A stretch of DNA of 64,000 bases from Chloropicon primus (taxonomy: Eukaryota > Chlorophyta > Chloropicophyceae > Chloropicales > Chloropicaceae). The stretch lies in assembly GCA_023205875.1 (NCBI GenBank), contig CP060755.1, positions 620,001 through 684,000 of the forward strand, in the 5' to 3' direction. Below the pieces are notes generated by a model, which ran no database searches, had not been told where the DNA came from, and saw nothing but the letters and a program-made list of their open reading frames with translations. Positions 12,432 through 58,072 of this stretch are shown here, in pieces. Both the position numbers and the translations under genes were made by a program. Numbering within the stretch: position 1 is the first letter of the stretch; every line of letters starts with the position of its first letter.

Positions 12432-12480
12432 TCCTCCCCAGTGCACCAAATCTTCCAAGAGAACGCTCAAACGAAAGAAC
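12432..12480 (-). promoter_or_regulatory. shared promoter element, ESF1
   Basis: Read on the minus strand: CTTTCGTTTG, then TTGGAAGATTT, then GGTGCACTGGGGAGG beginning exactly 30 nt after the first base of CTTTC. Ends 64 bp before the chosen ATG. Confidence 0.6.
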
Positions 12481-12733
12481 TCGACACAAGCTTTCCCAAG
12501 GCGCGATCCCCCCTCTCCGCTCCCCCCTCCGTCGCCCCTAATCCTCCGCCAAAGTCAAAAAAGTTGCCTCCTCGAACTCCTGGAGCTTCTCTCGATCTCC
12601 AGCGCCGACTCTTGCAGACTTGGCAACAGGGAAGGGGTACGAAGGCTCCAAGGGAGCGGCTTGAGCGGCGCACGGGGAACGGGGGCGCGAGGGGGCGGCA
12701 AAGAGGTGGGAAGGAAGCGAAATATTATCTCAC

Positions 12734-12783
12734 GAGCTTTCGGTAGACTGTTTGGTTAAAGGTTTTGGCTCACGGACGCGGTC
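12734..12783 (+). promoter_or_regulatory. shared promoter element, EMG1
   Basis: CTTTCGGTAG, then GGTTAAAGGTTTT, then GGCTCACGGACGCGG at the 30-nt offset. About 69 bp upstream of the EMG1 ATG, and head-to-head with the ESF1 copy. Confidence 0.55.
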
Positions 12784-12851
12784 TTGCCAAGGGGATTGGC
12801 ATTGGGTTCGAGTCGATTGAGTGGTTTGGGTTTAGGGATTGAGTGAGGAGC

Positions 12852-13250
12852 ATGGAGGGAGAGGAGGGGGAGGGGCCGAGGGGGAGGGGACTGGGTCGGG
12901 AGGAGGACGATCAGGACGACAACTTCGAGTACGGAGGAAAGAAAGGCAAGGCGGGTGCTATCTTTGTGCTGGAGAATGCCTCGCTGGAAGTCGGCAAAGT
13001 TGGTGAGTGGCTCGCTTGTGAACGATTCGTGCGTGGCCGGGGGACTGACGAATGATTGGCTCTTCTGCAGGAAAAACGATGACTCTTCTGAATTGTGACG
13101 ATCACGCCAATTTCTTGCGGAAGCACAGGAAGGACCCCGCTGATTACAGGCCTGACATTGCGCACCAGGTGGGTTGAAGGAACAGGGTCACGGCGGCGAC
13201 AACACTTTCGCGTTGCCCCCAAGGTCTCTTTCAACTCTGACACACTGGTT

Positions 13251-13288
<38 letters not shown>

Positions 13289-13788
13289 GCGTGTCTCAAT
13301 AGGCTCTTCTGGCCGTGCTGGACTCGCCACTGAACAAGGCTGGGTACATCAAAGCCGTCTACGTGAAGACGAAGAAGAACGTCCTGTTCGAGATAAGCCC
13401 GCAGGTGCGTATTCCCCGAACCTTCAAGCGATTCTGCGGGCTCATGTCCCAGCTGCTTCAGAAACTGAGCATCCGGTCCTCGAGCAGCCCCAAGAAACTG
13501 CTCAGGGTCATCAAGCAGCCCGTCACAAAGTACTTGCCGGTGACACACTGCAGGAGAATCGGGTTCTCCAGAAGCGCGGACAAGATTAGAAACCTGAAAG
13601 AGTTTGCCGACTCCGTGAACACGAAGACGGGCGAGACCTGCGTCTTTGCGGTTGGGGTCATGTCTCACGGAAAGATCGACACGCCTTGGGTGGATGAGAT
13701 GATTTCGATCTCTCAGTACCCTCTCAGCGCCGCCTGCTGCATATCAAAAATAACAAATGCTCTCGAAGGAAAGTTCAATGTCGTGTAG
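12852..13788 (+). CDS. EMG1: rRNA small subunit pseudouridine N1-methyltransferase EMG1/NEP1
   Basis: Three exons: 12852-13002, 13071-13168, 13303-13788; introns of 68 and 134 nt, GT-AG, the second with a (CT)n tract before the acceptor. Product 244 residues, standard for NEP1. Family signatures are nearly unbroken across the joins: LENASLEVGKVGK, LNCDDHANFLRKH, DSPLNKAG, VRIPRTFKRFCGLMSQLLQ and, at the C-terminus, PLSAACCISKITNALE. It is a SPOUT-fold enzyme that methylates a hypermodified pseudouridine of 18S rRNA and acts in the small-subunit processome. An in-frame GTG lies 9 nt upstream; the ATG is used. Convergent with the carrier gene, 171 bp apart. Confidence 0.93.
13254..13286. repeat. 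(CT)n tract in EMG1 intron 2
   Basis: Perfect CT dinucleotides placed where the polypyrimidine tract of the 13169-13302 intron is expected, 15 nt before the acceptor AG. Confidence 0.9.
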
Positions 13789-13959
13789 GAATAAGCCCTC
13801 TGCTCTTGCCCTGTGTCCTTCCTTCTTCCCGGCGGCTCCTCCCGTAAGAATAAGAACGTCTAGACAGTATTTTACAACAAAACGAGAATGAATGAATGAA
13901 TGAATCAAGGCAATGGCCCTGCAAGTTTCGTTTCGTTTCGTTTCGTTTCCCTTCCCCCT

Positions 13960-15164
13960 TCACTGCTCTGGGATCATGCAGTTTCGCTTCAAGAACTCGT
14001 AGGCCAAGATCATGCTCGTGCCCCACAACGAGGACGCGGTCATTCTGGGAAAAAGGCCTCTGTAAAACCCCCAGAGGCCCTCCTTTTGGAAAAGGTGGGT
14101 CACCTCCTTGTAGGCGCTGGGCCTCTCCACCGCTTCCGCTGCTGCGCCGCCCACGGCTTCCGAGACCTTCCTGTTCGCGACTTGGAATCTCGTTTTGATG
14201 ACATCCAGGGGGGTGGTGACCAGGGACGTCGTGCAGCCGGCGCTCACGGCGCTCACGGCTTGGATCCCAATCAGTCGCCACCCCCCAGAAGGCGCGCCAC
14301 CTTTGTCTCCTTGGCCACCTTTCCCGAAAGAGTGGCTCTCTTGTTGCCCCGCTCCGCCGAGCAGCTTCCAGTACTGCTCCTTGTAGATGCTGTAGGACCC
14401 CCACCATATTGCACTCCCCGGCACAAACAGGCCGACTGACATCCAGTATCCCCTGTAAAACCCCCTGAGCCCCTCGTTTCTGAAGATGGTCCGTACCTTG
14501 TGTTTCCCAGAGAGAGAGAGGGAGAGGGAGAGAGAGAGAGGCAAAAGAACAAGCAGAGAAAGAAAGTCAGTCGAGTCAGGAAAGTCCCACGCGATCGATT
14601 CGTCGTCTGGCCTTCGCCGAATCTCACCTTCTCCCCCAAACCTATCCGGTTCCGCGACACCATTTGCTGCTGCGAGATCACGTCCACGGGGACGAAGATG
14701 GTCTGCGAGGCGAGGCTCGCGCAGGCTCCGCTCAGGAAGCTGCTGAACGCCACGACCTTGGTCTGATCGAGCTGCGTGTTTGCGAAAAGAACCTTCTTCA
14801 TCCGAGACTTGACCGACTCTAGCGTGCTGAGGTACACGAGCCTGGCGGGAAGGAAGCCCGTGACCACGGTGGGGAACCCCCTGTAGAGGCCAAGCACCCC
14901 CTCCTTCGACACCACCGACCTCACTGCCTTGGCAGTCGCCCGTATCCCTACATTCCCTCCCCCCCCCTGCGCGTCCAGCGTCATCATCCTCGTCTTGATC
15001 ACGGACAATGGAAACAGGCAGGTCGTTATCCCGGTGAACACCCCGGTGCCCACCAAGAAAAACCGTCCCTTGTCGATCCTCTCCCACTCAATGTCCGGCG
15101 ACTGCTGCGGCACCGAAGACAACGGAACCGAACTCCGAGGATTCCCAGCCGCCATCACGTTCAT
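13960..15164 (-). CDS. SLC25A44: mitochondrial carrier, SLC25A44-like
   Basis: Two exons, 14628-15164 and 13960-14496, separated by a 131-nt intron (GTGAGA donor, interrupted CT tract, AG acceptor), both phase 0; 357 residues. Three mitochondrial-carrier repeats with P-x-[DE]-x-x-[KR]-type signatures: FPLSVIKTRMM, VPVDVISQQQM and TPLDVIKTRFQ, each followed by a GLYRGF-type motif. The N-terminal DIEWERIDKGRFFLVG strongly resembles SLC25A44, whose animal member imports branched-chain amino acids into mitochondria. The substrate here is inferred. Residues about 190-235 of repeat 2-3 hold a Gly/Ser/Lys insertion. Either of two ATGs (15164, 15155) may start it. Divergent from the desaturase gene. 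Confidence 0.82.
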
Positions 15165-15216
15165 CGCCTCACAACCTCTACCTACCCACACCAACCAGCA
15201 ATCCTCGAACTCTTCC

Positions 15217-15273
15217 CTCCACCAAACGCTTCACCGCACCAAATCTTTCAAGCGACGGGTCATAGGAAAGACC
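15217..15273 (-). promoter_or_regulatory. shared promoter element, SLC25A44-like gene
   Basis: Minus strand: CTTTCCTATGACCCG, then CGCTTGAAAGATTT, then GGTGCGGTGAAGCG at the 30-nt offset, and GGTGGAGG beyond. CTTTC and GAAAG form inverted arms. Ends 53 bp before the ATG. Confidence 0.6.
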
Positions 15274-15970
15274 GCGACCGTGCGTTTCACCCTGTGTACC
15301 TCTCTCTCCGCCCTTCGTCCCCGTTCCGTCCCGAAACTCGCTCCGAAACTTGCTCCCAAAACCCCTTCTGCCTCCAGAGCGACTGGACGAGCAGCACAAT
15401 GGAGGAGAGAGAACGCACCACACGTAGTCGCGGATTCCCGAGTAAGAGCGAGGGACGGATCCGAGGGCGATGGAAGAGGAGAAAGGAAAGTTTTCGTCCG
15501 TTCCAAGACAAGACAAGCGTCGCTTTGGTTGCAACTGGAGTTCTCTTGCAGTTCCTCCTCCCTTCGATCGATGCCTTTGTTGCAACTGAATACGGTATTC
15601 CCGCCGCTCCTCTTGTCCTCGTCCTGTAGTCTTGCCTTGGTTGGGGCGGCGGGGGAGAGGAAGAGAGAGCATCGAGAGAGTGGCAAGGCGTAAACTTGCC
15701 AAAACTTGGTCACTTCTTCTCCGGCCAGCCGTCGCTGTTCTTTGAACCGAACCGAAATCCGTGTGCTGTCCACGTCTTGTCCTCGTCCATCGTCTTGGTC
15801 CTGCCCTTGGAGAAGAAACTCAGAAACTGACGTCCACGGACCGACGTCATCGATCGACGAAAAGATCCCATTTGAATTGTCTGAAAGCCTCCTCTTCTCC
15901 TCCTCTGTCCTGCTCTTCTCCTCTCTCTCTCTCTTCCTGCCTTACTGGTTGACAACTGGAAGGAGGCACG
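15274..15970. other. intergenic, desaturase upstream region
   Basis: About 700 bp with short overlapping open frames of arginine/serine-rich composition on both strands and no recognisable product. CT-rich from 15885 to 15945, next to the desaturase start. I see no gene. Confidence 0.5.
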
Positions 15971-16320
15971 ATGGCGCCTTTCGCAACGATGACTTCCGCC
16001 GTGGCGGAGACCGTGAGTGAGGCGAGCCTTCCAAGCGATTGGTCCAAGAAGCCGACCAAGGCCGAGCAGGAGGCCAAGAGGAAGGCGTGCTTGGATGCGG
16101 CGAAGAACGACCTCAAGGCGCCACGAAGGGAATACATCTTCAGGTGGGTTTGGGTTTGAGGTTGGGTTTGGGGTTGGGTTGGGCGCGCGTGGAAGGGGGG
16201 ACTGGGACGGGGCACCGCCGAGAGGTCCTCCTGTCGGAGTTTGATGTGGCTGACACCGTGAGCTTTTGCTTTCTTCTTCCGCCCCCGTCACTTGTTTTGT
16301 TTTGATTTGTTTTGATTTGA

Positions 16321-16352
<32 letters not shown>

Positions 16353-17373: not shown

Positions 17374-17494
17374 TCAAAGACAAAGACTGCTTTTTTTTTT
17401 GATTTTTTCCTCCACTAAATATGTTATTTGTAGTAATAGTAATATAAATACACAAAAAAGAAACTGTTCTCGATCCTCCTCCCTAAACCCTCCC

Positions 17495-19900: not shown

Positions 19901-19981
19901 CTTGTCCTCCTCGAGCACCTCAAGCCCTCTCCCCTCTCCCCTCTCTCCCTCGTCCTCCACCTCTTCTCGTGGCCCTCAATG

Positions 19982-20028
19982 CCTCACCAGAGCGTCGTTT
20001 CCTTCGACCGAGGGGTCTGCAGAAAGAG
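19982..20028 (-). promoter_or_regulatory. shared promoter element, kinesin gene
   Basis: Minus strand: CTCTTTCTGCAGACCCC, then GGTCGAAGGAAAC, then GACGCTCTGGTGAGG at the 30-nt offset. 38 of 47 positions are identical without gaps to the element of the AspRS gene (47465-47511). Ends 81 bp before the ATG. Confidence 0.7.
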
Positions 20029-20209
20029 CAAGAGACGGTGCTTCGAATTCCACGCTCTCCTTTCTTTCCCTCTCCCTCCCTTTCCCTCAATCTTTCGCCT
20101 CTTTCGGCCTCCTCTCTCTCGGCGTCCTCTCCGCTCCCTTCGCTTTCGTATTGTTCTATTCAAATTTGAAACGAAAGCGACAGTTCTTGAGCTGAGAAGA
20201 GCGCAAGAG

Positions 20210-24584: not shown

Positions 24585-24833
24585 CTCTCTCCTCCACTCC
24601 ACGGCGTCTGATCTTCACAGAGTCACCAGTTCGCAGCGCGCGCGCGGACGGCGACGAGGCTCCCTCCTCGGTGCGAAACCCTAATGGAGAAGGAGTTGAA
24701 AACGGGAGTGAGATTTAACGCCCGGGTTCGTCGCACGACAAGGGAGAGGGAAGGTGTTGTTGTCGAGGACTTTGCGCACGGACGGGGACGGCGAAGGGGA
24801 GAAGGTGTTGAAAGAACGGAAGCGCATCTCAAG

Positions 24834-24879
24834 GGCTTTCGATTGATACCTCGGTTGAAGGTTTTGGCGCACGGAGTGG
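24834..24879 (+). promoter_or_regulatory. shared promoter element, HARE-HTH gene
   Basis: CTTTCGATTG, then CGGTTGAAGGTTTT, then GGCGCACGGAGTGG at the 30-nt offset. About 157 bp before the ATG at 25036. The remainder of 24585-25035 holds no recognisable gene. Confidence 0.55.
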
Positions 24880-25035
24880 TCCTCTCGCTCGCTCGCTCTC
24901 TTTGCTACGACAGGCGTTACAGGAGGAGGTTGCCTCGAAGTTTGTTTCGTGAGTTGTTGGCTCGGTTGTGTGACGAGGAAGAGAAAGGCAAGTCTTCGTC
25001 GAGCTGCGCAGTGTCGTGCGGTGCTTTGTTTCATC

Positions 25036-27259: not shown

Positions 27260-27380
27260 CGCGCAGTCCTCTCTCTCTCTCTCTCTCTCTCTTGTGCTCT
27301 CTCGTCTGAGCAACCTATCCTTGGCATGGCATGGCACAGACACCAAAGCAAAACGATCTCGTTTCAGTCTTCTCCCATGC

Positions 27381-27427
27381 TCCACAGAGCGTCGTTCCTC
27401 TCAACATAGTAACCAAACGAAAGATCG
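27381..27427 (-). promoter_or_regulatory. shared promoter element, NASP gene
   Basis: Minus strand: CTTTCGTTTGG, then GTTGAGAGGAAC, then GACGCTCTGTGGAGC at the 30-nt offset. Ends about 122 bp before the ATG. Confidence 0.65.
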
Positions 27428-27600
27428 TGACGAGGAGAAGGCTCCAACGAAGCTTTCCCTCCCCTTGTCACTCACCCACTTGCCCTCCTCCCGTCCTGAA
27501 CTCACCTCCGATCGATTCGATCGATCGCCTCCGTCTCTGTCGTTTCTTCTTCGTTGCATTTCACGCGGGAAAAAATCTCTCTCGCCGAGAAACCCTACAG

Positions 27601-27652: not shown

Positions 27653-27735
27653 TCGATCGATCGATCGGCAAGGGCGGAGGTGAAGAGGAAGGGGAGGAGG
27701 AGAGGACAACACGAACAGAATCTTCTTTTCGTGAT

Positions 27736-27781
27736 CATTCGTTGGACTCGTCGCTCAAGGGAAGCGGCGTTGTGGTGAGGA
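27736..27781 (+). promoter_or_regulatory. shared promoter element, bromodomain gene
   Basis: CATTCGTTGG (CTTTC box with one change), then CGCTCAAGGGAAGC, then GGCGTTGTGGTGAGG at the 30-nt offset. Ends 63 bp before the ATG. Confidence 0.6.
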
Positions 27782-27843
27782 CACACAGACAGAGTTTGTG
27801 AGAGAGGGGAGTGTCTGGTGGGCCAAGGAGGCCAGCAGGTGTT

Positions 27844-39100: not shown

Positions 39101-42100
39101 ACTGGTGCTGGGATCAGAACGAGATGGGATGGGTCGAGTGGATGAAGACGATTCCTGAGTTCAAGGCCGACCCTGACATGCCCTTCGCGGAAATGGTCAT
39201 CCCAACCATTGATACGGTGAGGTACGGGTATGTCGTCAACACTCTGGCAAGGAACAACAAGCACGTTCTTTGTGTCGGTGAGACTGGAACTGGAAAGACT
39301 TTGATCGTCTCGAGCAAGCTGATGAGCGGAATGCCCAAGGAGTACATTCCTATCTTCATGACGTTCTCTGCCAGGACGAGCGCGAATCAGACTCAGGATC
39401 AGATCGACGCGAGGATGGAAAAGAGGAGGAAAGGTGTTTTCGGCCCGCCTACGGGAAAGAAATACGTTTTCTTTATCGACGACTTGAACATGCCCCTGCG
39501 TGAGAAGTACTTTGCGCAGCCCCCAATCGAAGTTGTCCGCCAGTGGATGGATTACTCTGGCTGGTACGACAGGAAGCCCCCGTGCGCGTTCAGGCAGTTG
39601 ATTGACATGCAGTTCATAGCCGCCATGGGCCCACCGGGCGGAGGAAGAAACCCTGTCACCAACCGGCTCTTGAGGCACTTCAACTTCATCAGTTTCACTG
39701 ACATGTCAGAGGAAACCTTGTGCAGAATCTTCGAAACGATCCTGTCGTCCTTCGTGACGAAGTACATGGGCAATCTGTCCGAGCTGGTCCATCCGATCAT
39801 CACGAGCACGGTTGGAATGTACAACACCGTGAGAACGGAATTGCTGCCGACGCCATCCAAGAGTCACTACACGTTCAACTTGCGTGACCTCGGAAAGGTC
39901 TTCCAGGGAACCATGCGTGCGAATCCAAAGGTTATTTCTAACGAAGCGGGGTTCGTCTGTCTCTGGCTTCACGAGCTCCAGAGGGTCTTCAAGGATCGCT
40001 TGATCAACAACGAGGACAGGGACTGGTTCCTTGAGCTCCAGAAGAAGCACATCAAGGAGCACTTGAACATGGAGTGGTCGGACACGGTCACGACGCAGAG
40101 CTTGATCTTTGGGGACTACTTCATTCCTGGCGCAGACCCCAAGATCTACCAGCAGGTTACTGACGTGGACAAGCTCATCAGCGTGATCAACGAGTACTTG
40201 GAGGATTACAATTCAGTCTCAAACGCTCCGATGAACCTGGTTATGTTCTTGGACGCGATCGAGCACGTGTCGAGGGTCTGCAGAGTGATTGGTCTGCCCC
40301 TTGGAAACGCTCTGCTCCTCGGAGTGGGTGGAAGTGGTCGACAGAGTTTGACGAAACTGGCGGCCAGCATAGAAGACTACCAGCTGTTCCAGATCGAAAT
40401 CAGCAAGCAGTACGGTCAGAACGAATGGAGAGATGACCTGAAGACTGTTCTGAAGAAGGCTGGAATGGACGGGGAGAACGTCGTCTTCCTTTTTACAGAC
40501 ACCCAAATCGTTCAAGAATCCTTCCTGGAGGACATCAACAACGTTCTCAACTCGGGCGAGGTGCCAAACCTTTGGGGCACTGATGACATCGAGCAAATCA
40601 ACGGGGCCATGAGGCCACTGATGCAGCAGCAGGGGATCCAGCAGATCACAAAGCCTGCTATCGCTTCGTTCTTCACGAACAGGGTGAGGTCCAACCTTCA
40701 TGTGGTCCTGTGCTTCTCCCCCGTCGGCGACGTGTTCAGGCAGCGCCTGCGTATGTTCCCTGCTCTGGTCAACTGTTGCACAATCGACTGGTTCGCGGAG
40801 TGGCCACGGGAAGCATTGGCGTCTGTCTGCAAGTATTTCATGACCGACGTCGAGCTCGGAGAGAGCGAGACCAACATGCTGCAGGGAGTTGTGGACTCTT
40901 GCGTGTACATCCACCAATCCGTGGAGAGGAAGTCCAAGAAGTACCTCGAGGAGCTCAGGAGGCACAACTATGTCACGCCAACATCGTATCTCGAGCTGCT
41001 TGGGACGTTCTTGAAGGTCCTGGGCGAGAAGAAGAACGAGCTGGGGACGGTAAAGACGCGCCTTTCTGTGGGTCTTGACAAGCTCAACAACACCACGACC
41101 GAAGTCGAGAAAATGAAGGAGGATCTGAGAAACCTTCAGCCGGTGCTGACCAAGACGCAGAAGGAGGTGGAAGAGATGATGGTTGTCATCACCAAGGACA
41201 AGAAGGAAGCAGACGAGACCAAGAAGATTGTGACGGTCCAGGAAGCCGAGGCAAATGAGCAGGCTGCGACTGCCAAGGCAATCAAGGATGACGCCGAGGC
41301 CGATCTGGCCAAAGCCCTTCCCGCTCTTGATGCCGCCCTGGAGAGCCTGAAGAACCTCAGTAGGGCAGACATTGTCGAGGTCAAAGCTTTGAAGAATCCA
41401 CCAGAGGGAGTGCGACTTGTGATGGAAGCCACGTGCATTATGTTCGAAGAGAAGCCAAAGATGGTCGCGGATCCAAACAGAATGGGAAAGAAGATTCCGG
41501 ACTATTGGGAGAACGCAACCAAGCTTCTCGCGGACCCCACGAGGTTCCTCACCATGCTTACTGAGTTCGACAAGGACAACATAAAGAACTCAGTCATCAC
41601 AAAGATCGAGCCGTACATGAACAACGATGCTTTCACCCCAGAAGCTGTGGCGAGGGTGAACAAAGCATGCACGTCGATCTGTATGTGGGCGAGGGCCATG
41701 TACACGTACCATCAGATCGCTCTGCAAGTCGAGCCAAAGCGTGCAGCACTCAAGGAGGCTGAGGCTGCTGCAGCTAGGGCTGCTTCGACGCTGGCCGAGG
41801 CGCAAGCGAGCTTGAGAGAAGTCGAGGAGAAAATTGCGAAGCTGGAGGCGGATTATGACAAGGCGGTCACCAAGCAAGACGAGCTTGCGAAAGAGGTGAG
41901 CGATTGCAAAGTCAAGCTGGAAAGGGCCGAGAAGCTGATCGGTGGTCTGGGAGGCGAGAGGGTGCGCTGGACAGAGACGGTCGAGGCCTTGACGAAGGCG
42001 TTGGTCAACGTTATTGGTGACGCTGTCGTCAGTTCGGGTGTAATTGGGTATTCGGGGCCCTTCACGCCCATGTACCGCCAGGAGCTCGTCAAGGAATGGA

Positions 42101-45100
42101 ACGAAGCTCTTGACAAGTTCGGAATCCCCCACACGGAAGGCACGAACATCATATCCTGCCTGCAGGACCCTGTGCAGGTCCGGTCCTGGAATATCGCAGG
42201 TCTGCCCTCGGATGCCCAGTCCACGGAGAATGCGATCATTCTGAGCAAAGCCCGCCGCTGGCCTCTCATGATTGACCCCCAGGGCCAGGCCAACAACTGG
42301 ATCAAGAACATGGAAAAGGACAGGGGACTCGATGTCATCAAACTCAGTGAGAAGGACTACCTGAGAACTTTGGAGAACGGCGTGCGGTTCGGCCGTGCCG
42401 TCCTTTTGGAGAACATCGGGGAAGAGCTTGAGGCGGCCCTCGAGCCACTGCTTCTCAAGCAGGTGTTCAAGGATGGTAGCAACGACGTGATCAAGATTGG
42501 CGACAACGTCATTCCTTACCACGCCGACTTTTCGTTCTACATGACTACCAAGCTCAGGAACCCTCATTATTCTCCCGAAATCAGTGTCAAGGTGTCCATC
42601 TTGAACTTCTTGGTCACCCCAGAGGGACTTGAGGACCAGTTGCTTGGCATCGTGGTGACCCAGGAGCGCCCCGACCTCGCTGAGATGAAGAACCAGCTCG
42701 TGATCAGCAACGCGAAGATGAAGAAGGAGTTGAAGGAAATCGAGGACAAGATTCTTTTCTTGCTCAGCAACTCGCAGGGCAACATTCTTGATGACGAGGA
42801 GCTGATTGACACTCTCGCCAAGTCGAAAGTCACCTCGAATGAGATTTCTGCCAAGGTGGCGGAAGCAGAGAAGACCGAGAAAGAAATTGATGCGACGAGG
42901 GAGCTGTATCGACCCGTGGCGATCAGGTCCAGTTTGCTCTTCTTCTGCATTTCTGATCTGGCCCTCATGGACCCCATGTACCAGTATTCACTCACTTGGT
43001 ACATTGACCTCTTCATCCGTGGCATTGCTGCTTCAGAGACTTCAGATGACATCGAAGTGAGAGGAAAGAACCTGAATGACTACTTCACTCTTTCCCTGTA
43101 CAACAACATTTGTAGATCACTCTTTGAGGACCACAAGCTTCTGTTCTCGTTCACGCTGTCTATCAAGATATTGAAGCACAGAGGGGTCATCGATGACCAT
43201 GACTGGAGATTCTTGCTCTCAGGAGCCACGAGTGAGGATAAGTCAAAGCCAAATCCTGCGCAAGAGTGGCTGACCGACCAGAACTGGAACGAAATCGTGA
43301 ACTTGTCCAAGATCCCGAACTTTGAAGGGTTCGCGGACGATTTCACGGCAAACATAGGTGTCTACAAGACCCTGTTTGACTCGAACGATGCCCATCGCGA
43401 GGAGTTCTCCCCCCTGTTCCAAGAGAAGCTGACTTCCTTCCAGAGGTTGTGCGTTCTCAAGTGCATCAGGGCGGACAAGGTCGTCTTGGCCATTCAGGAC
43501 TTCATCTCAAAGGAGATGGGGCAGCAGTTCATCGAGCCTCCGGCCTTTGACTTGGGCATCTGCTACAAGGAGTCCCAGAACCTTGTTCCTCTGATTTTCG
43601 TGCTGAGCTCCGGCGCAGATCCCATGGCCGATCTCTTGAAGTTTGCGGACGAGATGAAATTCTCCAGGAAGTTCGACAAGGTTTCTCTTGGCCAAGGGCA
43701 GGGTGCCAAGGCAAAGAAGCTCTTGAGCAACGGCATGGAGCGCGGGCTTTGGGTCTGCCTCCAGAACTGCCACTTGGCAGGAAGCTGGATGCCGTCCCTG
43801 GAAAGGATACTGGAGACGACTGACCCGAAAACGGTGCACAAGGACTTCAGACTGTGGTTGACTTCCATGCCAAGCGAGACTTTCCCCGTTCTGATTCTGC
43901 AGAATGGCGTCAAGATGACACTGGAACCACCAAAGGGTCTGAAGAGCAACCTTACTCGGTCTTACAACAGGATCACGGACAACTACGTGAACGAGTGCTC
44001 CAAGCCAGACGAGTTTAGAAAACTGATGTTCGGCCTCTGCTTGTTCCATGCCGTCATTCAGGACAGGAGGAAGTTTGGCCCCTTGGGCTGGAACATCCGA
44101 TACGGGTTCACGGACGGGGATCTGAACGTGTGCCAGACTCAAATGAAGATGTTCCTCTCCGATTACGACGAGATTCCTTATCGCGTGCTGAGGTTCATGT
44201 GCTCAGAGATCAATTATGGAGGAAGGGTCACGGATGACAAGGACCGCCGCCTGATTAACAACCTCCTGGAAACGTTCATCAACGAGAACTTGCTGATGGA
44301 AGGCTATCAGTTCTCTGATTCTGGTGTGTACAAAGTGCCAGGAGCGGAAAACATCAATGGGTACCAGTCCTTCATCAGCGACTTGCCTATTGTCCCACAC
44401 CCAGAGATTTTCGGGCTCCACGAGAACGCAGACATTACCTGTGACTTGAACGAAACAACCAGCCTGTTCACGACTGTGCTGTCCATCCAGCCCCGAGTGG
44501 GAGGAGGCAGCGGGTTGTCCAGAGAAGAAATTGTTTCTAAACTTGCTGCGGACATCTTGTCGAAAACTCCAGGAGTGTTTGACACAGATGTGGTCTACAA
44601 GAAGTATCCTACGAGGCACGACGAGAGTATGAACACTGTCTTGAACCAGGAGTGCCTCAGGTACAACAACCTGTTGGCAGTGATGAAAAAGAGCTTGGAG
44701 AACTCCATCAAGGCCCTCAAGGGTCTTGTTGTGATGTCCCCTGACCTGGAGGCGGTGACAACTTCGCTGTTCAACAATCAGGTCCCCGATATGTGGGCAG
44801 GCAAGGCTTACCCGAGTCTCAAGCCGCTCTCTGGTTGGGTCACGGATCTGCTGGCGAGAGTCGAGTTCATCAGCCAGTGGATCAACACGGGAAACCCAGC
44901 GATCTACTGGATCTCCGGTTTCTTCTTCCCCCAGGCCTTCCTCACGGGAACCCTCCAAAACTTTGCGAGAAAAATGATGTTCTCCATTGACACCGTCAGC
45001 TTCTCTTTCCGGGTCATGGACACCCTGAGCGAGAAGACCACGACTTCCGGGCCCACGGATGGGTGCTACATCAGGGGTCTGTACCTCGAGGGCGGGCGCT

Positions 45101-45372
45101 GGGACCACGCCGCCCACGTCCTGGACGAGAGTCGTCCCAAGGAGCTTTACACGGAAATGCCAATCATCTGGCTCAAGCCCGAGCAGAACAGGATCAAGCA
45201 GGAGTTTGGAATCTACAACTGCCCGGTCTACAAGACGCTGACGAGGGCCGGAACCCTTTCCACGACGGGCCACAACTCCAACTTTGTGCTTTTCATTGAG
45301 GTTCCGTCCGACAAGCCCCAGAGCCACTGGATCAACAGAGGAGTTGGTCTATTCACGGCTCTCGCGTACTAA
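33103..45372 (+). CDS. DNAH1: axonemal dynein heavy chain, DNAH1-class
   Basis: One exon of 12,270 nt, 4,089 residues. Minus-end microtubule motor of the axoneme. In order: N-terminal tail with IPYKTKPGEVPRQVQIERKK near 70, a ligand segment WLPRMYICFRAEDPFLFAKR near 188, the linker, then six AAA modules. P-loops: AAA1 GPAGTGKT (1430-1437), AAA2 GPTMGGKT (1711), AAA3 GETGTGKT (2059), AAA4 GVGGSGRQ (2407). The stalk coiled coil runs at about 2647-2745 and 2880-2953 with the microtubule-binding tip between. The C-terminal domain ends WINRGVGLFTALAY. N-terminal features point to the single-headed DNAH1 type inner-arm chains; the class is less certain than the family. A GTG lies 9 nt upstream; ATG chosen. 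No intron despite its size. Confidence 0.93.
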   Translation: MVTTPSKNNVRPAKGGFRPKARFDLNKEVPGNGVNGNGAHQPVEVNDASPGADAEGRLDFISPSEPKVMIPYKTKPGEVPRQVQIERKKRLFALQDISKLLDDEDVDLSDKDMRGMGKKLKIETFDNTTYETRNQREWCPLDKTSTSTETEATAARKGQFDTLSWVPCTVVDTNEAENTYLVRYEDTKEEAWLPRMYICFRAEDPFLFAKRVAESVQQRKLSEVQLRYNFFIDNMPTEDIPPLTNEQVNRVLVYALNSKKLKDKLMDTSQLINEVNIDFARTMNKLIFDKINEREKKAKDSSILSIDDMFDVDPKAEVPESGTYPIPLYDFPDQFSEFSFHTFLTKPEVISAIVKVKSEGLKIQKMNIFNIHYTKSSKLQEFEQAQGQATDQVSNQVKETWILTLKNLIRSSFKDVGKGWFNLNEQNQETYEFSKLKKFLRVVRFMMEDTLRILVESSYEKFVNFIEAECNCTVDIVSPAKVVVQKSSDKKRKVPLFSVELAMDSENFCFHYSTPLDKFLSAILKVFEQGITSLQGIPSIEPSIMENLFWGSIPILNAVHPMEVKVAAAREELKNTVNFSLVALNAYLKQYEKYNHLLELDVNQFCSDLSSREDISLDVLKKTITEGEEYLVHLKSSIPSSIVVGSYMVNTNKVREFLITKQSDLIAKVKDVVVEIPKKRVREICQKYEDIDRKLKVKTQKPEDVDDMRRLMETVPSKNAELREEIMSLNDYYACLHDMRYNLSESDSQSKFVGSFWGVKIERLLESTSESMDKDQERYEDEMEEEQDSFQATIETLTDTVDKFSQYTDLSKVDYVHDDVQQISQQLKKAQDDANLFNRREGLFQKAITDYSHLQKVTTQFEPFQQLWKYAAAWKSWENEWMNGVFVKLNPENVDRNVNVSIKSLHKTAKAFTNKGLDKCAENCHTTKAKIEDFMKYVPIMAALRNPGMRDRHWEQISEEIKKELNPDETFTLKMGLEMGIMDHEERIIKIADIAGKEFSIEQALDKMQQEWSTVELELKEYRETGTYVVKVDENIIQQLDDHIVMSQSMSFSPYKKPFEERITNWEQQLSLVSEVIDEWIQLQRQWMYLEPIFNSEDIQHQLPLESKRFSSVDRMWRKTLQQAYMTPHILTMCSSQKLLETYIESNKMLDSVQKGLADYLETKRLAFARFFFLSNDELLQILSQTKNPLAVQPHLRKCFEAISTLDFADDLEISAMNSKEGERIPFDKSMYPKGNVENWLGEVEERMKASVRMQTEVSIYDYAEKERTQWVRDWPAMVVLSGSAIHWCQGVETGIKESGLKSFQEKALAELYDMTALVRGKLSKLERMSLGALITIDVHARDVVQNLVDANITAITDFEWVSQLRYYWKEREGTTGQAECWVEMVQASICYGYEYLGNSPRLVITPLTDRCYMTLMSAMHINLGGAPAGPAGTGKTETTKDLAKAMAKQCVVFNCSDGLDYIAMGKFFKGLASSGAWACFDEFNRIDLEVLSVIAQQILTIQLAIQQKVQRFIFEDTEIGLNPACNVYITMNPGYAGRSELPDNLKALFRPCAMMVPDYSLIGEISLYSFGFQNAKALAKKMVATFKLCSEQLSSQDHYDYGMRAVKSVITAAGNLKRDYPDDDEEVLLLRGLKDVNVPKFLSHDLPLFNGIISDLFPGVEQPNIQHDKLIEAIHESCKELGLQPVDSFVSKVIQLYETTLVRHGLMLVGPTMGGKTSNWKSLSRAMTKLVGVDEFQKVRVYPLNPKSITMGQLYGEFDDNTHEWTDGVLACYMRECSEDTKPDKKWIMFDGPVDAIWIENMNTVLDDNKKLCLVSGEIIQLSSAMTMMFEVEDLAVASPATVSRCGMIYVEPTTMGFTPLLDSWIETLPDFAAGKGEVMKEIFLGVVPDAIYLVRKQLKETVTTTDNNLVTSIFKIMSSMLKPFIRKEGEDPLTEEVLGQIQDMMVPYFIFSIVWSVGCSCDAKGRVVFDKYFREKVLSVKAHVPDSAMMPTDKSVYDWCWDQNEMGWVEWMKTIPEFKADPDMPFAEMVIPTIDTVRYGYVVNTLARNNKHVLCVGETGTGKTLIVSSKLMSGMPKEYIPIFMTFSARTSANQTQDQIDARMEKRRKGVFGPPTGKKYVFFIDDLNMPLREKYFAQPPIEVVRQWMDYSGWYDRKPPCAFRQLIDMQFIAAMGPPGGGRNPVTNRLLRHFNFISFTDMSEETLCRIFETILSSFVTKYMGNLSELVHPIITSTVGMYNTVRTELLPTPSKSHYTFNLRDLGKVFQGTMRANPKVISNEAGFVCLWLHELQRVFKDRLINNEDRDWFLELQKKHIKEHLNMEWSDTVTTQSLIFGDYFIPGADPKIYQQVTDVDKLISVINEYLEDYNSVSNAPMNLVMFLDAIEHVSRVCRVIGLPLGNALLLGVGGSGRQSLTKLAASIEDYQLFQIEISKQYGQNEWRDDLKTVLKKAGMDGENVVFLFTDTQIVQESFLEDINNVLNSGEVPNLWGTDDIEQINGAMRPLMQQQGIQQITKPAIASFFTNRVRSNLHVVLCFSPVGDVFRQRLRMFPALVNCCTIDWFAEWPREALASVCKYFMTDVELGESETNMLQGVVDSCVYIHQSVERKSKKYLEELRRHNYVTPTSYLELLGTFLKVLGEKKNELGTVKTRLSVGLDKLNNTTTEVEKMKEDLRNLQPVLTKTQKEVEEMMVVITKDKKEADETKKIVTVQEAEANEQAATAKAIKDDAEADLAKALPALDAALESLKNLSRADIVEVKALKNPPEGVRLVMEATCIMFEEKPKMVADPNRMGKKIPDYWENATKLLADPTRFLTMLTEFDKDNIKNSVITKIEPYMNNDAFTPEAVARVNKACTSICMWARAMYTYHQIALQVEPKRAALKEAEAAAARAASTLAEAQASLREVEEKIAKLEADYDKAVTKQDELAKEVSDCKVKLERAEKLIGGLGGERVRWTETVEALTKALVNVIGDAVVSSGVIGYSGPFTPMYRQELVKEWNEALDKFGIPHTEGTNIISCLQDPVQVRSWNIAGLPSDAQSTENAIILSKARRWPLMIDPQGQANNWIKNMEKDRGLDVIKLSEKDYLRTLENGVRFGRAVLLENIGEELEAALEPLLLKQVFKDGSNDVIKIGDNVIPYHADFSFYMTTKLRNPHYSPEISVKVSILNFLVTPEGLEDQLLGIVVTQERPDLAEMKNQLVISNAKMKKELKEIEDKILFLLSNSQGNILDDEELIDTLAKSKVTSNEISAKVAEAEKTEKEIDATRELYRPVAIRSSLLFFCISDLALMDPMYQYSLTWYIDLFIRGIAASETSDDIEVRGKNLNDYFTLSLYNNICRSLFEDHKLLFSFTLSIKILKHRGVIDDHDWRFLLSGATSEDKSKPNPAQEWLTDQNWNEIVNLSKIPNFEGFADDFTANIGVYKTLFDSNDAHREEFSPLFQEKLTSFQRLCVLKCIRADKVVLAIQDFISKEMGQQFIEPPAFDLGICYKESQNLVPLIFVLSSGADPMADLLKFADEMKFSRKFDKVSLGQGQGAKAKKLLSNGMERGLWVCLQNCHLAGSWMPSLERILETTDPKTVHKDFRLWLTSMPSETFPVLILQNGVKMTLEPPKGLKSNLTRSYNRITDNYVNECSKPDEFRKLMFGLCLFHAVIQDRRKFGPLGWNIRYGFTDGDLNVCQTQMKMFLSDYDEIPYRVLRFMCSEINYGGRVTDDKDRRLINNLLETFINENLLMEGYQFSDSGVYKVPGAENINGYQSFISDLPIVPHPEIFGLHENADITCDLNETTSLFTTVLSIQPRVGGGSGLSREEIVSKLAADILSKTPGVFDTDVVYKKYPTRHDESMNTVLNQECLRYNNLLAVMKKSLENSIKALKGLVVMSPDLEAVTTSLFNNQVPDMWAGKAYPSLKPLSGWVTDLLARVEFISQWINTGNPAIYWISGFFFPQAFLTGTLQNFARKMMFSIDTVSFSFRVMDTLSEKTTTSGPTDGCYIRGLYLEGGRWDHAAHVLDESRPKELYTEMPIIWLKPEQNRIKQEFGIYNCPVYKTLTRAGTLSTTGHNSNFVLFIEVPSDKPQSHWINRGVGLFTALAY

Positions 45373-47416: not shown

Positions 47417-47464
47417 GACCTCTTACTCCCTCTCTGCCTCCGTTCCAATCGCGAACCTCCACGT

Positions 47465-47511
47465 CCTCCCCAGAGCGTCCCCGCGTTCGAGTGAGGGGTC
47501 TGCGGAAAGAG
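47465..47511 (-). promoter_or_regulatory. shared promoter element, AspRS gene
   Basis: Minus strand: CTCTTTCCGCAGACCCC, then CACTCGAACGCGG, then GACGCTCTGGGGAGG at the 30-nt offset. Ends 48 bp before the ATG. Confidence 0.7.
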
Positions 47512-47776
47512 GAGAACGTGACGCTTCCGACTGTGCCTTCCTCCGCGCCTTTCCTCTCGGCTCCCGACCGTCCTCTCCCTTTGAAGACACGCAAAGGTTC
47601 CTCGCGTTCTTATCCAGAATGAGAATGATCTGACTCACGAAAACGAGAGAGGAGGAGGGAGGGGGACGAAGCCACAGGCGGCGGAGACGACGGTACGAAG
47701 GAGGTTTGAGACAGAGAGAGAGGGAGAGGGAGAGGAGGGAGAGGGAGAGAGGCGTGAGGTGGATCGACGTCTCGAG

Positions 47777-47823
47777 GGCTTTCCATTGCTTCGCTCGCTT
47801 GCATTGTTTGGTCGCCGGAAGGG
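47777..47823 (+). promoter_or_regulatory. possible shared promoter element, NOP9 gene
   Basis: GGGCTTTCCATTG, then CGCTTGCATTGTTT, then GGTCGCCGGAAGG; spacing one nucleotide longer than in the other copies. About 70 bp before the ATG. Confidence 0.35.
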
Positions 47824-47842
47824 TTGACCAGGAGGACAAGAG

Positions 47843-50837: not shown

Positions 50838-50839
<2 letters not shown>

Positions 50840-50879: not shown

Positions 50880-50887
<8 letters not shown>

Positions 50888-50933
50888 TGTAGAGGAGGGA
50901 GAGGAGGGGGAGGCTGAAGGAGGGGCTCGAGAT

Positions 50934-50980
50934 CTTTCGAACGAGTGCTCGCTTGAAAGGAGCGACGCTCTGGTGAGGAG
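50934..50980 (+). promoter_or_regulatory. shared promoter element, INO80B-like gene; two-way copy
   Basis: CTTTCGAACGAG, then CGCTTGAAAGGAGC, then GACGCTCTGGTGAGG at the 30-nt offset, 61 bp before the ATG. The first 26 bp form an imperfect palindrome, so the minus strand also shows CTTTCAAGCG, then CGTTCGAAAGATCT, facing the SCI1-like gene. Confidence 0.7.
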
Positions 50981-51040
50981 TGACGGGACACGAGAACGAG
51001 AACGAGATAGGTGAGGGCGAGGGAGGGAGAGAGCGAGGAG

Positions 51041-53376: not shown

Positions 53377-53544
53377 TCTTCTTCTCCTCTGATTTTTTTT
53401 TCCCCGAGGTGCCAGGCAGAATGAAAGTAACCGATGGTCACGAACACCGGGAGAGCGCGAACGGAGATCAGAGGGAGAGAGAGAGAGAGGACACGAAAGA
53501 CGCAAGTGTAACGCTCGGAGACCGAGCTCGCCCAAGGAAGGAGG

Positions 53545-55521: not shown

Positions 55522-55937
55522 TACACGGGGAGGATCCGCGTCGTTGTTGTTGTTGCTGTGTGTCTGTAAAGTAGTAACTGATGTGATATGTGATCGTTTT
55601 GGCACCTTTTAAAAGATGGGGACTCTTTTTTATTCTGTACGTGGTAGGCAGTCCAGCATGCTGTGCCAAGAGGAAACCTTTGCCTTTTCGATAGGCCCGA
55701 AGGTCTCGACGGAACGTGGGGGCCACGTGTTTTTCGCAAGCAAGATTTTTCTTCTTTTTTCCCAAGGGAGCTCAAGTGTAGAAAACCCCACATTGAGCCC
55801 CCTCCGCTTGCTTTGAGGTTTCGCGCCATCTCCGTTTGGGGAAAAATGGGAGCAGGGAGTAAAAAGGCAAGGTTCACTTTTTGTAACGGGCGGCGACGTA
55901 ACCGACGAGAGAGAGAAAGCACTACAACAAGTTCATC
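55522..55937. other. intergenic, ammonium transporter upstream region
   Basis: Contains a GTT run near 55545 and T-rich segments. CCTTTTCGATAGG and CGAAGGTCTCGACGG at 55683-55711 recall pieces of the shared promoter element but at the wrong spacing. No gene. Confidence 0.45.
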
Positions 55938-57440
55938 ATGGACGCGGCGACGGGAGACGGGGCGCGCCCCCTCGTGGAGGCGGCGCAAGTGAGCTACGTG
56001 ACGTCGGACGAGTTCACGACGGTGGTGGACCACCTCTGGCTCCTGATCAGCGCCTTTCTGGTTTTCCTCATGCAGGCCGGGTTCGCGATGCTTGAGGTCG
56101 GCACGGTGCGCCAGAAGAACGCGAAGAACCTGATGATCAAAAACATCATGGACCTCGCCGCGGGGGCCTTCGTGTGGTGGGCCTTCGGGTTCGCCTTCGC
56201 GTACGGGGGCGGGGACTACAGCGGCGGGCCCTCGAACGGGTTCATCGGCGCCCAAGGTTTCTTCTTCATCAAGGGCTACGACGCGTGCGACGACGCCAGC
56301 GAATTCTGCCTGTACCCCATCAAGCCCAAGTACGACTCGTTCGCGGGCTGGCTCTTCCAGTGGGCCTTCGCGGCGACGGCCACCACCATCGTGAGCGGGG
56401 CCGTGGCCGAGAGGTGCTCCTTCCTCGGCTACGTGATTTACGCCGTGTTCATCACCGGCTTCATCTACCCCGTGGTCGTCCACTGGATCTGGTCGGAATA
56501 CGGGTGGCTGTCCGCGTTCAGGAACCCGGACGCCCCGGGCGTCTGGATCGCGAGCGGGGTCGTCGACTTTGCCGGTAGCGGCGTCGTGCACTTGGTGGGC
56601 GGGACGATCTCCCTGGTCGCCGCGTACATCCTCGGCCCCCGAATCGGTCGGTTCGACGCCACCGGGAAGGTCGTGCCCATCATGCCCCACAACTCCGCCT
56701 TTGTCGGTCTCGGAACCCTCCTCTTGTGGTTCGGCTGGTTCGGGTTCAACTCGGGGTCCACCCTCGCGCTGTCCGGCGGCTTCATCCTCGCGGCGGAAAA
56801 GGTTGCGGTGGGCACCACTCTCGCCGCCAGCGGCGGGGGACTGGCCGGAATCTGCATGTGCTTCGTCAAGGACGGGTACCTCGACCTTCCCGCCCTGTGC
56901 AACGGAATCTTGGGAGGCCTCGTGGGAGTCTGCTCGGCGGTCGCTGTCGCGGAGCCTTGGGCCTGCTGGGTCATCGGCTTCTTCGCGGGCTGCGTCGAGT
57001 TCTGGTTCGCGATCGGGGTGCAAAAGCTGAAGATCGACGACCCCCTCGACGCCAGCGCCGTCCACATGGGGTGCGGCTTCTTCGGCTTGATCTGCGGAGG
57101 ACTCTTCGGGACCAGGCTCAACACTGACGCGACGTACAGCGCTGACCAGCCTTGCGGGGCCTTCTTCCCGGGCTGTGGCGGACAGCAGCTCGGTGTCAAC
57201 ATCCTCGGCGGGGTCATGATCATGGTCTGGTGCTCGGGCATGGCGTTCCTTGTCTTCGGTGGAATGAGACTGGCTGGCATCTTGAGAATTTCATCAAAGC
57301 AGGAGCACGAAGGCCTGGATGTGTCCTATCACGGCTCCGCCGCTTACGATGACACTATGGACGGCTCAGGCAGCGCGAAGTACAGGAACAAGGTGCAGAG
57401 AGCAATGATCGCTGAGGAAGTCGAACCCCCGACCGAGTAG
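55938..57440 (+). CDS. AMT1: ammonium transporter, AMT/MEP family
   Basis: Single exon, 500 residues, eleven predicted hydrophobic helices. Extracellular N-terminus without signal peptide; the first helix is LLISAFLVFLMQAGFAMLEV, then RQKNAKNLMIKN. The two pore histidines are present in SGVVHLVGG (near 216) and ASAVHMGCG (near 377), with FNSGSTLALSG between. The cytosolic tail after about residue 450 is acidic with Ser/Thr sites and an ISSKQEHEGLD helix like the regulatory tail of AMTs. It imports ammonium across the plasma membrane and is a plain AMT, not a Rh protein or sensor fusion. Confidence 0.93.
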   Translation: MDAATGDGARPLVEAAQVSYVTSDEFTTVVDHLWLLISAFLVFLMQAGFAMLEVGTVRQKNAKNLMIKNIMDLAAGAFVWWAFGFAFAYGGGDYSGGPSNGFIGAQGFFFIKGYDACDDASEFCLYPIKPKYDSFAGWLFQWAFAATATTIVSGAVAERCSFLGYVIYAVFITGFIYPVVVHWIWSEYGWLSAFRNPDAPGVWIASGVVDFAGSGVVHLVGGTISLVAAYILGPRIGRFDATGKVVPIMPHNSAFVGLGTLLLWFGWFGFNSGSTLALSGGFILAAEKVAVGTTLAASGGGLAGICMCFVKDGYLDLPALCNGILGGLVGVCSAVAVAEPWACWVIGFFAGCVEFWFAIGVQKLKIDDPLDASAVHMGCGFFGLICGGLFGTRLNTDATYSADQPCGAFFPGCGGQQLGVNILGGVMIMVWCSGMAFLVFGGMRLAGILRISSKQEHEGLDVSYHGSAAYDDTMDGSGSAKYRNKVQRAMIAEEVEPPTE

Positions 57441-57849
57441 GTGAGCCCCGCTGGAAAGTTGGCAACGCCAAACTCGCATCAAGAAGTTCTTAAGAGTTCT
57501 TAAACAACAGCAGTTACAACACATCTAGATCGATTATTCCATTTCACTGCTTATAAGAAAGACGGACAATTCCCCCTCCGCGACGATCGACAGAGACCTC
57601 TACTCGATGCCTTCCTTTGTTGGTCACGCCACCAGAGAGGCTCTGGTTCCTCCTCCCTCTCTTTGTTTCTTTCTCTTCCGGTGGATTTTCTCCCTTCCGC
57701 TGAACGTTCATCATAACGGCCGAGCACGAGGGCGAGGGCGAACGAGGACGAGACGAGCACGAGAGAGAGAAACAAACGAGGACGGGAGCGCGCGGCGGAG
57801 GAAAAAAGAAAGACGGAGGACAGGAACGAAGGAAGCGTCTTCTCTTCCT
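57441..57849. other. intergenic, no gene seen
   Basis: 3' flank of the ammonium transporter followed by a sequence rich in CTCCTCC, GAGGGCGAGGGCG and GAAAGA words. Short arginine-rich frames only. Confidence 0.5.
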
Positions 57850-57894
57850 CTTTCGAAAGAGTCGTAGCTCGAAGAAAGGACCCGTTTGTGAGGA
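57850..57894 (+). promoter_or_regulatory. promoter element, distal copy, F-box/ankyrin gene
   Basis: CTTTCGAAAGAGTCG, then GCTCGAAGAAAGGAC, then CCGTTTGTGAGGATC, one nucleotide shorter in spacing. Followed by TGAGGAGCAC, also found after the proximal copy. Confidence 0.5.
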
Positions 57895-58026
57895 TCTGAG
57901 GAGCACGAAACGGGAGAGAGGAAACAAAAGGACGAACGAGAGGAGGGGGGGCTAATACGAGGAGAGCGCGCGTTTGTTCGGGAGGTTTCGCGGGTGACAG
58001 ACGAGCGGAAGGAGCTTCTTCTTGCT

Positions 58027-58072
58027 CTTTCGAACGAGCCCTCACGCGAAAGAACCGACCCGGTGGTGAGGA
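58027..58072 (+). promoter_or_regulatory. promoter element, proximal copy, F-box/ankyrin gene
   Basis: CTTTCGAACGAGCCC, then CGCGAAAGAAC, then GACCCGGTGGTGAGG at the 30-nt offset, with perfect CTTTCG/CGAAAG arms. Ends 47 bp before the ATG. The distal copy lies 177 bp upstream. Confidence 0.65.

Follow-up and report, generated by a model that had tools for sequence, protein, structure and literature searches.

A 75-bp oriented element with a palindromic core upstream of unrelated genes in Chloropicon primus: a candidate gene-start switch

Introduction

To our knowledge, little is known about gene switching in picoplanktonic green algae. The window analysed here, by which we mean the whole 64-kb stretch of DNA, comes from the nuclear genome of the green picoalga Chloropicon primus RCC138. 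A first-pass annotation had reported that three short boxes, A, B and C, recur with a fixed geometry and in the orientation of the gene upstream of at least ten genes with no function in common, and had proposed that they form a core promoter or start-site element. What is this arrangement, is it more frequent than chance would have it, and what could it do at these genes?

Results

Architecture and occurrence of the element

The whole element is about 75 bp long and oriented, and its parts follow each other in the order upstream box, 26-bp dyad and box C. Its core is the imperfect palindrome CTTTCGANNGANNNNTCNNTCGAAAG. The upstream box, GGAANCNTCGTCTC, spans about -31 to -19 and box C, GRCGCNCTGGTGAGG, +17 to +31, counted from the centre of the dyad. 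The three boxes described earlier are real, but the layout was incomplete, as boxes A and B turned out to be the two halves of a single dyad and the upstream box had been overlooked. Averaged over 74 elements, the information above the local background is concentrated between -38 and +38 and is weak beyond. Conservation is mirrored about the dyad, with a half-to-half r of 0.78 compared to a maximum of 0.49 in 2,000 permutations. A division into two discrete subtypes was rejected: a two-matrix mixture was worse than a single matrix by BIC (difference -285), and hence we treated the variation of the element as continuous.

Scanning with an ungapped 74-nt weight matrix, the scores of which are given in bits, located 12 elements in the window, to which a copy with a one-nucleotide insertion upstream of NOP9 has to be added (Table 1). 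All ten copies named in the first-pass annotation are present on the strands given there, and its kinesin and AspRS copies do match at 38 of 47 positions. The two copies that it had fitted with a one-nucleotide shift were also recovered. The distal F-box/ankyrin element, in which box C is one base early, was found by the matrix, whereas the NOP9 copy, which carries its insertion inside the dyad, was missed by the ungapped matrix (-7.8 bits) and found by gapped profiles.

Table 1. Copies of the element in the 64-kb window
Copy	Position	Dyad	Strand	Score	Gene identification
Upstream of ESF1	12428..12501	12452-12477	-	56.2 bits	ESF1 by Pfam
Upstream of EMG1	12713..12786	12737-12762	+	41.2 bits	EMG1 by Pfam
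Upstream of mitochondrial carrier gene	15221..15294	15245-15270	-	46.5 bits	Pfam Mito_carr
Upstream of kinesin	19977..20050	20001-20026	-	70.8 bits	kinesin by Pfam
Upstream of putative HARE-HTH gene	24812..24885	24836-24861	+	48.8 bits	name from first-pass annotation
Upstream of NASP-like SHNi-TPR gene	27374..27447	27398-27423	-	35.4 bits	Pfam SHNi-TPR
Upstream of bromodomain (BET) gene	27712..27785	27736-27761	+	56.0 bits	Pfam bromodomain
Upstream of AspRS	47460..47533	47484-47509	-	51.7 bits	AspRS by Pfam
Upstream of NOP9 (diverged)	47759..47825		+	nhmmer 21.3 bits, E 4e-5; cmsearch E 0.005	
Upstream of INO80B-like gene	50910..50983	50934-50959	+	67.5 bits	name from first-pass annotation; no Pfam match
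F-box/ankyrin gene, distal	57826..57899	57850-57875	+	46.6 bits	
F-box/ankyrin gene, proximal	58003..58076	58027-58052	+	55.2 bits	
Upstream of D123-family gene (new to the list)	63022..63095	63046-63071	-	39.3 bits	D123 by Pfam

The element is no chance pattern, as it is enriched over both shuffled sequences and reversed controls. In 264 kb, 37 dyads were found, whereas four Markov-1 shuffles gave 2.5 on average. The genome-wide enrichment on which the first-pass annotation had staked its proposal is pronounced: at up to three mismatches, the dyad occurs at 1,022 places in the genome and its reversed control at 9. Furthermore, GACGCTCTGGKGAGG occurs 18 times in the genome, counting both strands, and its reversed control not once. 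We estimate the number of copies at 1,515 to 2,864, which corresponds to at most about 17% to 33% of genes. At least one low scorer (coordinate -47221, 15.4 bits) among the 43 elements in the 264 kb resembles a chance match. The exact palindrome was also encountered in 16 IMG/VR stretches, none of which has the flanks (scores of -22 to -31 bits), and viral use of the element was discarded.

Orientation and position relative to genes

Across the stretches that were read, the element nearly always lies upstream of a gene and is directed at it. When the orientation was learnt from the flanks alone, the gene on the box-C side pointed away from the element in 35 of 37 cases. With a second automatic gene rule, this was true of 38 of the 43 elements in the 264 kb, or 35 of 39 after merging tandem elements (p 1.7e-7). 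Judging from Pfam genes, the gene calling had missed the gene in three of these five exceptions (ESF1 and both ankyrin copies), so that the corrected count is 41 of 43. Elsewhere, of 33 elements that have a coding neighbour, 31 behaved in the same way; two elements of locus L001, one pointing away and one toward, repeat the training region, and without them the count is 30 of 31. The strand and position bias predicted in the first-pass annotation is thus borne out in these stretches. Although coding sequence makes up 69% of the region, just 2 of 43 element centres lie inside a called coding sequence, one of them (ESF1) through an error in gene calling. When we looked for a first coding ATG between +14 and +700 relative to the dyad centre, 70 of 80 elements had one; the nearest is at +34, just past box C, and the median is about +134. 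For two of the 43 elements, no gene was detected near box C.

The other side of the element is of interest as well. There, too, the gene points away in 36 of 43 cases, and in only 26 of 39 promoters does the gene at box C lie closer than that on the opposite side, so that bidirectional use is possible. The G-rich character of the sense strand starts about 140 bp upstream of the dyad, and transcription could therefore begin upstream of the element. The element was found at 25 of 88 divergent and 5 of 43 tandem gene starts (two-sided Fisher p 0.045), which is only suggestive of a preference for divergent starts.

Spacing between elements

Elements that occur in pairs keep set distances. Among 80 elements, all 11 same-orientation pairs within 700 bp are 172-193 bp apart, adjacent back-to-back pairs (n=14) are 262-351 bp apart, and no face-to-face pair was found. 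In the window, the ESF1 and EMG1 elements stand back-to-back at 285 bp and the NASP and BET elements at 338 bp; the NOP9 copy lies, by arithmetic from the coordinates, about 295 bp from the AspRS element, which is the usual back-to-back distance. The distal and proximal F-box/ankyrin elements are 177 bp apart. Genome-wide, 105 pairs have gaps of 142-172, compared to 26 in the control, and 37 have gaps of 111-141, again compared to 26.

Recent duplication was considered as the source of the tandem spacing and rejected: in 7 of the 11 pairs, the regions between the elements are no more alike than those of random pairs (95th percentile). Pair 81166/81348 is a clear duplication (U side 0.84). Pairs 257825/258002 (U side 0.65 vs 0.632) and 177457/177629 (D side 0.69 vs 0.619) exceed the limit, and pair 1281/1463 of locus L044 is right at it (D side 0.62).

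Alternative explanations

The element could be part of a promoter-carrying repeat, such as a short non-autonomous transposon, which has dispersed in the genome and of which the copies in front of genes were retained. Like a MITE, it has many scattered copies, a few of them recent duplicates. Two pairs, the members of which are separated by about 35 and 42 kb, remain similar well past the element (98.9% over 179 bp, 92.8% over 209 bp), as does a third pair (77% over 184 bp). One tandem pair is clearly duplicated, as described above. A number of further pairs outside the ankyrin family can be aligned over 70-180 bp at about 71-85%, and their similarity extends to as much as about 110 bp upstream of the dyad. 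The pairs that are alike beyond the element, both the three local ones and some others, have differing ends. Against a repeat stand the weakness of the average information outside -38 to +38, a constraint that is specific to positions and symmetric about the dyad, the near-strict orientation and placement, the scarcity of element centres in coding sequence and the 7 of 11 tandem pairs that show no excess similarity between their elements. We regard a repeat origin as unlikely. The copies did not prove to be the one dispersed repeat family that the first-pass annotation named as the outcome that would overturn its proposal, though a few promoters were copied in blocks of about 180-209 bp.

Instead of a general promoter element, this could be a transcription factor site that serves a single regulon, such as that of growth or of ribosome biogenesis. 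The element is carried by ESF1, EMG1, NOP9 (the diverged copy), an RsmB-type RNA methyltransferase, AlaRS and AspRS, and none was assigned to the ammonium transporter, HisG and V-ATPase genes of the window. However, it is also found at the genes of Vps53, SYS1, kinesin, a penicillin-amidase-family protein, an ABC1 kinase, carriers, an AAA ATPase (RFC1-like) and ankyrin proteins, whereas RIO2 and a class I tRNA synthetase, which belong to translation and ribosome biogenesis, have no assigned element. In line with the first-pass annotation, the element genes show no single function as judged from their Pfam annotations, and a single regulon appears improbable. The dyad, which is close upstream of ATGs, might instead be the hairpin of a structured RNA in 5' untranslated regions. 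It could form a 12-bp stem, in which 72.4% of cells pair compared to 31-51% for slid partners, as in any palindrome. But there were only 3 compensatory cells compared to 8.3 in shuffles (499 of 500 shuffles were at least as high) and RNAalifold predicted no pair. In the window, Rfam gave no match at gathering scores, and no known RNA family or tRNA gene was found by Rfam and ARAGORN. On covariation and RNAalifold we rejected the hairpin, to which we assign hardly any probability.

The fixed geometry, the orientation and the closeness to the gene would also suit a common version of one of the known core promoter motifs (TATA, Inr or DPE). This is an equally remote prospect in view of the length of about 75 bp, the 26-bp dyad and a consensus that, in line with the first-pass annotation, contains no TATA. 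Upstream of genes that lack the element, TATAAA is at chance level, with 1 sense match among 90 sequences where 1.1 would be expected, and k-mer counts for another motif class there gave only simple repeats and intron-like words. Heat shock elements consist of contiguous alternating nGAAn pentamers; compared by eye with this definition, the dyad consensus has no 5-bp alternation, and this candidate was rejected.

Discussion

Taken together, we consider it probable that the element is a directional promoter element that works as double-stranded DNA, with a putative homodimeric factor on the dyad and a transcription start at or shortly after box C. In this mechanism, the factor would sit on the 26-bp dyad, and added contacts on the upstream box and box C would make the complex asymmetric. 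Such a complex may behave like a general regulatory factor, which keeps the start region open, and would steer the transcription machinery toward the box-C side. In promoters with two elements, these are spaced by one set unit, of about 180 bp head-to-tail and about 285 bp back-to-back. The unit may represent the stretch of DNA needed beside each complex, of the size of a nucleosome or an initiation complex; the fixed spacing of pairs is what is expected if each bound complex requires a set length of adjoining DNA.

Long, information-rich sites near housekeeping genes are known for yeast Reb1, Abf1 and Rap1 and for metazoan ZNF143, BANP and M1BP. Like these, the element lies close upstream of unrelated genes, often between divergent ones, but it differs in its length, its 26-bp dyad, its oriented flanks and its pair spacing, and its sequence is, as far as we know, unrelated to any of these sites. 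With TATA, Inr, DPE and the oomycete Inr/FPR it shares the orientation toward the gene and a fixed internal geometry, whereas it is far longer, has a palindromic core and serves at most the fraction of genes estimated above; we know of no consensus that it has in common with Inr, DPE or the oomycete Inr/FPR. The nitrate-responsive element of plant RWP-RK factors is also a pseudo-palindrome of similar total length. However, its half-sites and spacer are different, and the genes with our element extend beyond nitrate use. A literature search gave no description of the element among the matches listed. The main text of the Chloropicon genome paper contains neither "promoter" nor "palindrom" (PMC6731263), and that of a second Chloropicon genome paper neither "promoter" nor "motif" (PMC12301720).

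The element is hence a strong candidate for a gene-start switch of an as yet undescribed type. More tentatively, and with less confidence than we place in the directional promoter element itself, it may represent a promoter system specific to the Chloropicophyceae, in which a dimeric factor on an asymmetrically flanked dyad would replace TATA-type signals at many genes, fix the direction of transcription and line up elements at intervals of one nucleosome-scale unit, in which case sequence alone would reveal the start regions. An oriented 75-bp element, of which we estimate at least 1,500 copies, predicts the direction and the approximate start of a gene. It could serve as a bait to isolate the factor and as a natural promoter part in an alga of ecological importance, and its fixed spacing allows a direct test of whether promoter sequence and chromatin packing are linked.

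Structure of the element

By iteration from five copies over the window, positions 620001-684000 of contig C2, and the preceding 200 kb (264 kb together), we obtained matrices for an oriented upstream signal of about 75 bp. At its heart is a dyad, the 26-bp imperfect palindrome CTTTCGANNGANNNNTCNNTCGAAAG, from whose center distances are counted. Two asymmetric flanks form part of the element: GGAANCNTCGTCTC upstream and, on the positive side, box C, GRCGCNCTGGTGAGG, often with ATTTGA next. A symmetric dyad matrix gave 37 matches in the 264 kb, whereas four Markov-1 shuffles averaged 2.5, and the halves of the refined matrix correlate with r = 0.78 (permuted positions reached at most 0.49 in 2,000 trials). 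With the refined 74-nt matrix, the 264 kb contain 43 elements, and the 324 kb that also take in the other loci contain 80; two 264-kb shuffles combined yielded 1 site above threshold. In the mean of 74 elements, information over local background extends from about -38 to +38. Weaker signal continues to about +48, and around -90 to -70 there are a few positions with little information.

The first-pass annotation had proposed three boxes of fixed geometry upstream of unrelated genes. Every copy that it listed is present at its place, and its kinesin and AspRS copies are indeed identical at 38 of 47 positions. The boxes are real, but the first two are the halves of one palindrome, and the NOP9 copy, although present, is picked up by a gapped search that permits a 1-nt insertion but not without one. 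Gapped profiles add about four more diverged or partial copies, and at least one low-scoring matrix match is apparently due to chance (Table). The original observation is real, with more structure than first described.

Table. Positions of elements and associated features (window coordinates unless a contig or locus is named; negative values are bases before the window start on C2)
Feature	Position	Remark
Further element	63022-63095	Found with the 74-nt matrix, beyond the original list
ESF1 promoter	12428-12501	
BET promoter	27712-27785	
F-box/ankyrin promoter region	57826-59463	
Long ORF	33103-45372	4,089 codons, uninterrupted, high coding score, no element assigned
ESF1-like tandem elements	C2 ~597,460-597,700	-22542 and partner
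BET-like promoter	C2 ~605,452 (-14549)	No gene detected close by
Element	-68466	No gene detected close by
Apparent chance match	-47221	Low score
Partial match	L018:4206-4237	Upstream box and left dyad half only; by arithmetic, back-to-back with a full element at ~295 bp
Partial match	L016:2739-2769	Upstream box and left dyad half only
Partial match	L018:7063-7095	Upstream box and left dyad half only; ungapped matrix 16.8 bits
Back-to-back half-site pairs	C5:111333, C8:342378, C8:379858, C8:521119	Examples picked by eye

Genome-wide number

The genome, that of a green picoalga, is compact and averages fewer than one intron per gene (PMC12301720); the assembly around the window comprises 17,584,162 bases in 20 contigs, the longest chromosome being C1 (1,855,637). 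Throughout it the dyad pattern with up to 3 mismatches occurs at 1,022 places, compared with 9 for the reversed pattern. As the 264 kb hold 29 such places and 43 elements, scaling gives an estimated total of about 1,515 elements, while plain density gives about 2,864. Set against the 8,693 genes that have been reported for strain CCMP1205 (PMC12301720), these totals correspond to no more than 17 to 33% of genes. On its own, the dyad lacks specificity, because the palindrome occurs in 16 IMG/VR stretches from which the algal flanks are absent. Most of these viral contigs (L045-L060) have a near-identical stretch in common around an exact palindrome, CTTTCGAGCGA...TCGCTCGAAAG, which looks unrelated to the algal element.

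Orientation and distance to genes

Orientation was assigned from the flanks alone. For the 37 dyads of the 264 kb, the gene on the box-C side points away in 35 cases and the gene on the opposite side in 30. A second automatic gene rule gave 38/43 for the box-C side (35/39 with tandem elements merged, p = 1.7e-7) and 36/43 for the opposite side. Of the five box-C exceptions under this rule, three (ESF1 and both ankyrin copies) are missed gene calls; Pfam finds these genes there, which corrects the count to 41/43. The box-C gene is the nearer neighbor in 26/39 cases, at a median of 194 bp versus 437 bp on the opposite side.

In the other loci, chosen by box C (L001, L005-L008) or by perfect dyads (L029-L044), the coding neighbor points away in 31 of 33 elements; 5 of 38 elements have no neighbor in the stretch. 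Excluding L001, which lies inside the 264 kb, leaves 30/31, and excluding also the ankyrin-family loci L034, L036, L038 and L039, where homology runs into the genes, leaves 23/24. A first coding ATG, searched for between +14 and +700, was found for 70 of the 80 elements; the nearest is at +34 and the median about +134, ATGs starting directly after box C.

Elements (33 of the 37 dyads) occupy 22/44 divergent, 4/43 tandem and 1/43 convergent intergenic stretches. The divergent excess per gene start is only suggestive (p = 0.045). A single element may therefore be used in both directions.

Spacing between elements

Of the 80 elements, those that share an orientation and lie within 700 bp of each other form 11 pairs, each spaced at 172-193 bp; the 14 adjacent back-to-back pairs are 262-351 bp apart, and there are no facing pairs within 700 bp. 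In both L043 and L044 there are four elements, a pair for each direction with 177-182 bp between its members, and the inner elements are 294-295 bp apart.

Genome-wide, we counted the half-site pair TCGAARG...CYTTCGA by gap. Gaps of 142-172 hold 105 pairs (control 26), compared with 37 (control 26) at 111-141; gaps of 173-203 hold 67 (control 29), which are partly the same elements recounted via the inner TCGAAAG. Gaps of 235-265 and 266-296 hold 75 each (controls 28 and 29); the bins counted stop at 203 and resume at 235, so this back-to-back peak is compared with its control and not with an adjacent bin. Judged by eye among the matches listed, the element-like pairs at 142-172 mostly combine one box-C end with one upstream end, i.e. 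the same orientation, and those in the back-to-back range mostly combine two upstream ends.

Of the 11 same-orientation pairs, three come from the ankyrin family and another is a recent tandem duplication, so that seven remain. Recent duplication does not by itself account for the spacing, as in 7/11 pairs the sequence between the elements is no more alike than random pairs. One unit from about -142 to +38 would yield both distances and would be comparable to a nucleosome repeat. Over the 80 elements, the sense strand is rich in G between about -140 and the gene and rich in C farther upstream; this skew switches near -145, which nearly coincides with the midpoint between back-to-back elements.

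DNA element, RNA hairpin or dispersed repeat

The element probably acts as DNA and not as RNA. In a 32-sequence alignment, changes on both sides of a putative hairpin occur in 3 cells versus 8.3 in shuffles (499/500 shuffles matched or exceeded the observed count), and no pair is predicted by RNAalifold. Stem pairing, at 72.4% of cells, is above slid controls, which is expected of any palindrome. Rfam and tRNA searches of the window gave no match.

The best rival explanation is a repeat dispersed through the genome, and some promoters are indeed near-identical. Over 179 bp, the ESF1 promoter shows 98.9% identity with a copy some 35 kb distant. Between the BET promoter and another some 42 kb off, identity is 92.8% across 209 bp, and in a third pair it is 77% across 184 bp. 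A number of further pairs outside the ankyrin family reach about 71-85% over 70-180 bp, with similarity extending as far as about 110 bp before the dyad. However, in the average of 74 copies the information lies mainly within the element, and the constraint on it is position-specific and symmetric.

At the distant site, the second tandem element is also similar to the ESF1 promoter (70.8% across 192 bp), which would fit the fusion of two tandem elements by recombination. The F-box/ankyrin promoter region has extended homology with L034, L036, L038 and L039 on other chromosomes; in several of these loci, picked by perfect dyads, it enters the gene start, and they look like a dispersed gene family.

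Genes and function

An element is assigned to 32 of the 131 coding blocks in the 264 kb. Pfam annotation covered 26 of these genes, 9 without a match, and the remaining six in another scan. It identifies AlaRS, AspRS, an RsmB-type methyltransferase, ESF1, EMG1, Vps53, SYS1, carriers, an ABC1 kinase, kinesin, a bromodomain protein, D123, ankyrin genes, endonuclease III-like and SNAPC1-like proteins and an RFC1-like AAA ATPase, whose RFC1 lid domain is below the curated score. Genes without an assigned element, in the part scanned, are likewise mixed. A single regulon is not evident from this annotation.

Among the matches listed for Chloropicon promoters and motifs, Ostreococcus and Micromonas core promoters and green-algal palindromic motifs, no comparable element is described. 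The main text of PMC6731263 does not contain "promoter" or "palindrom"; that of PMC12301720 does not contain "promoter", "motif" or "transcription factor".

There is good support for reading this signal as an oriented DNA promoter element. A dimeric factor bound to the element would fix the start of transcription, in conjunction with packing on the scale of a nucleosome.
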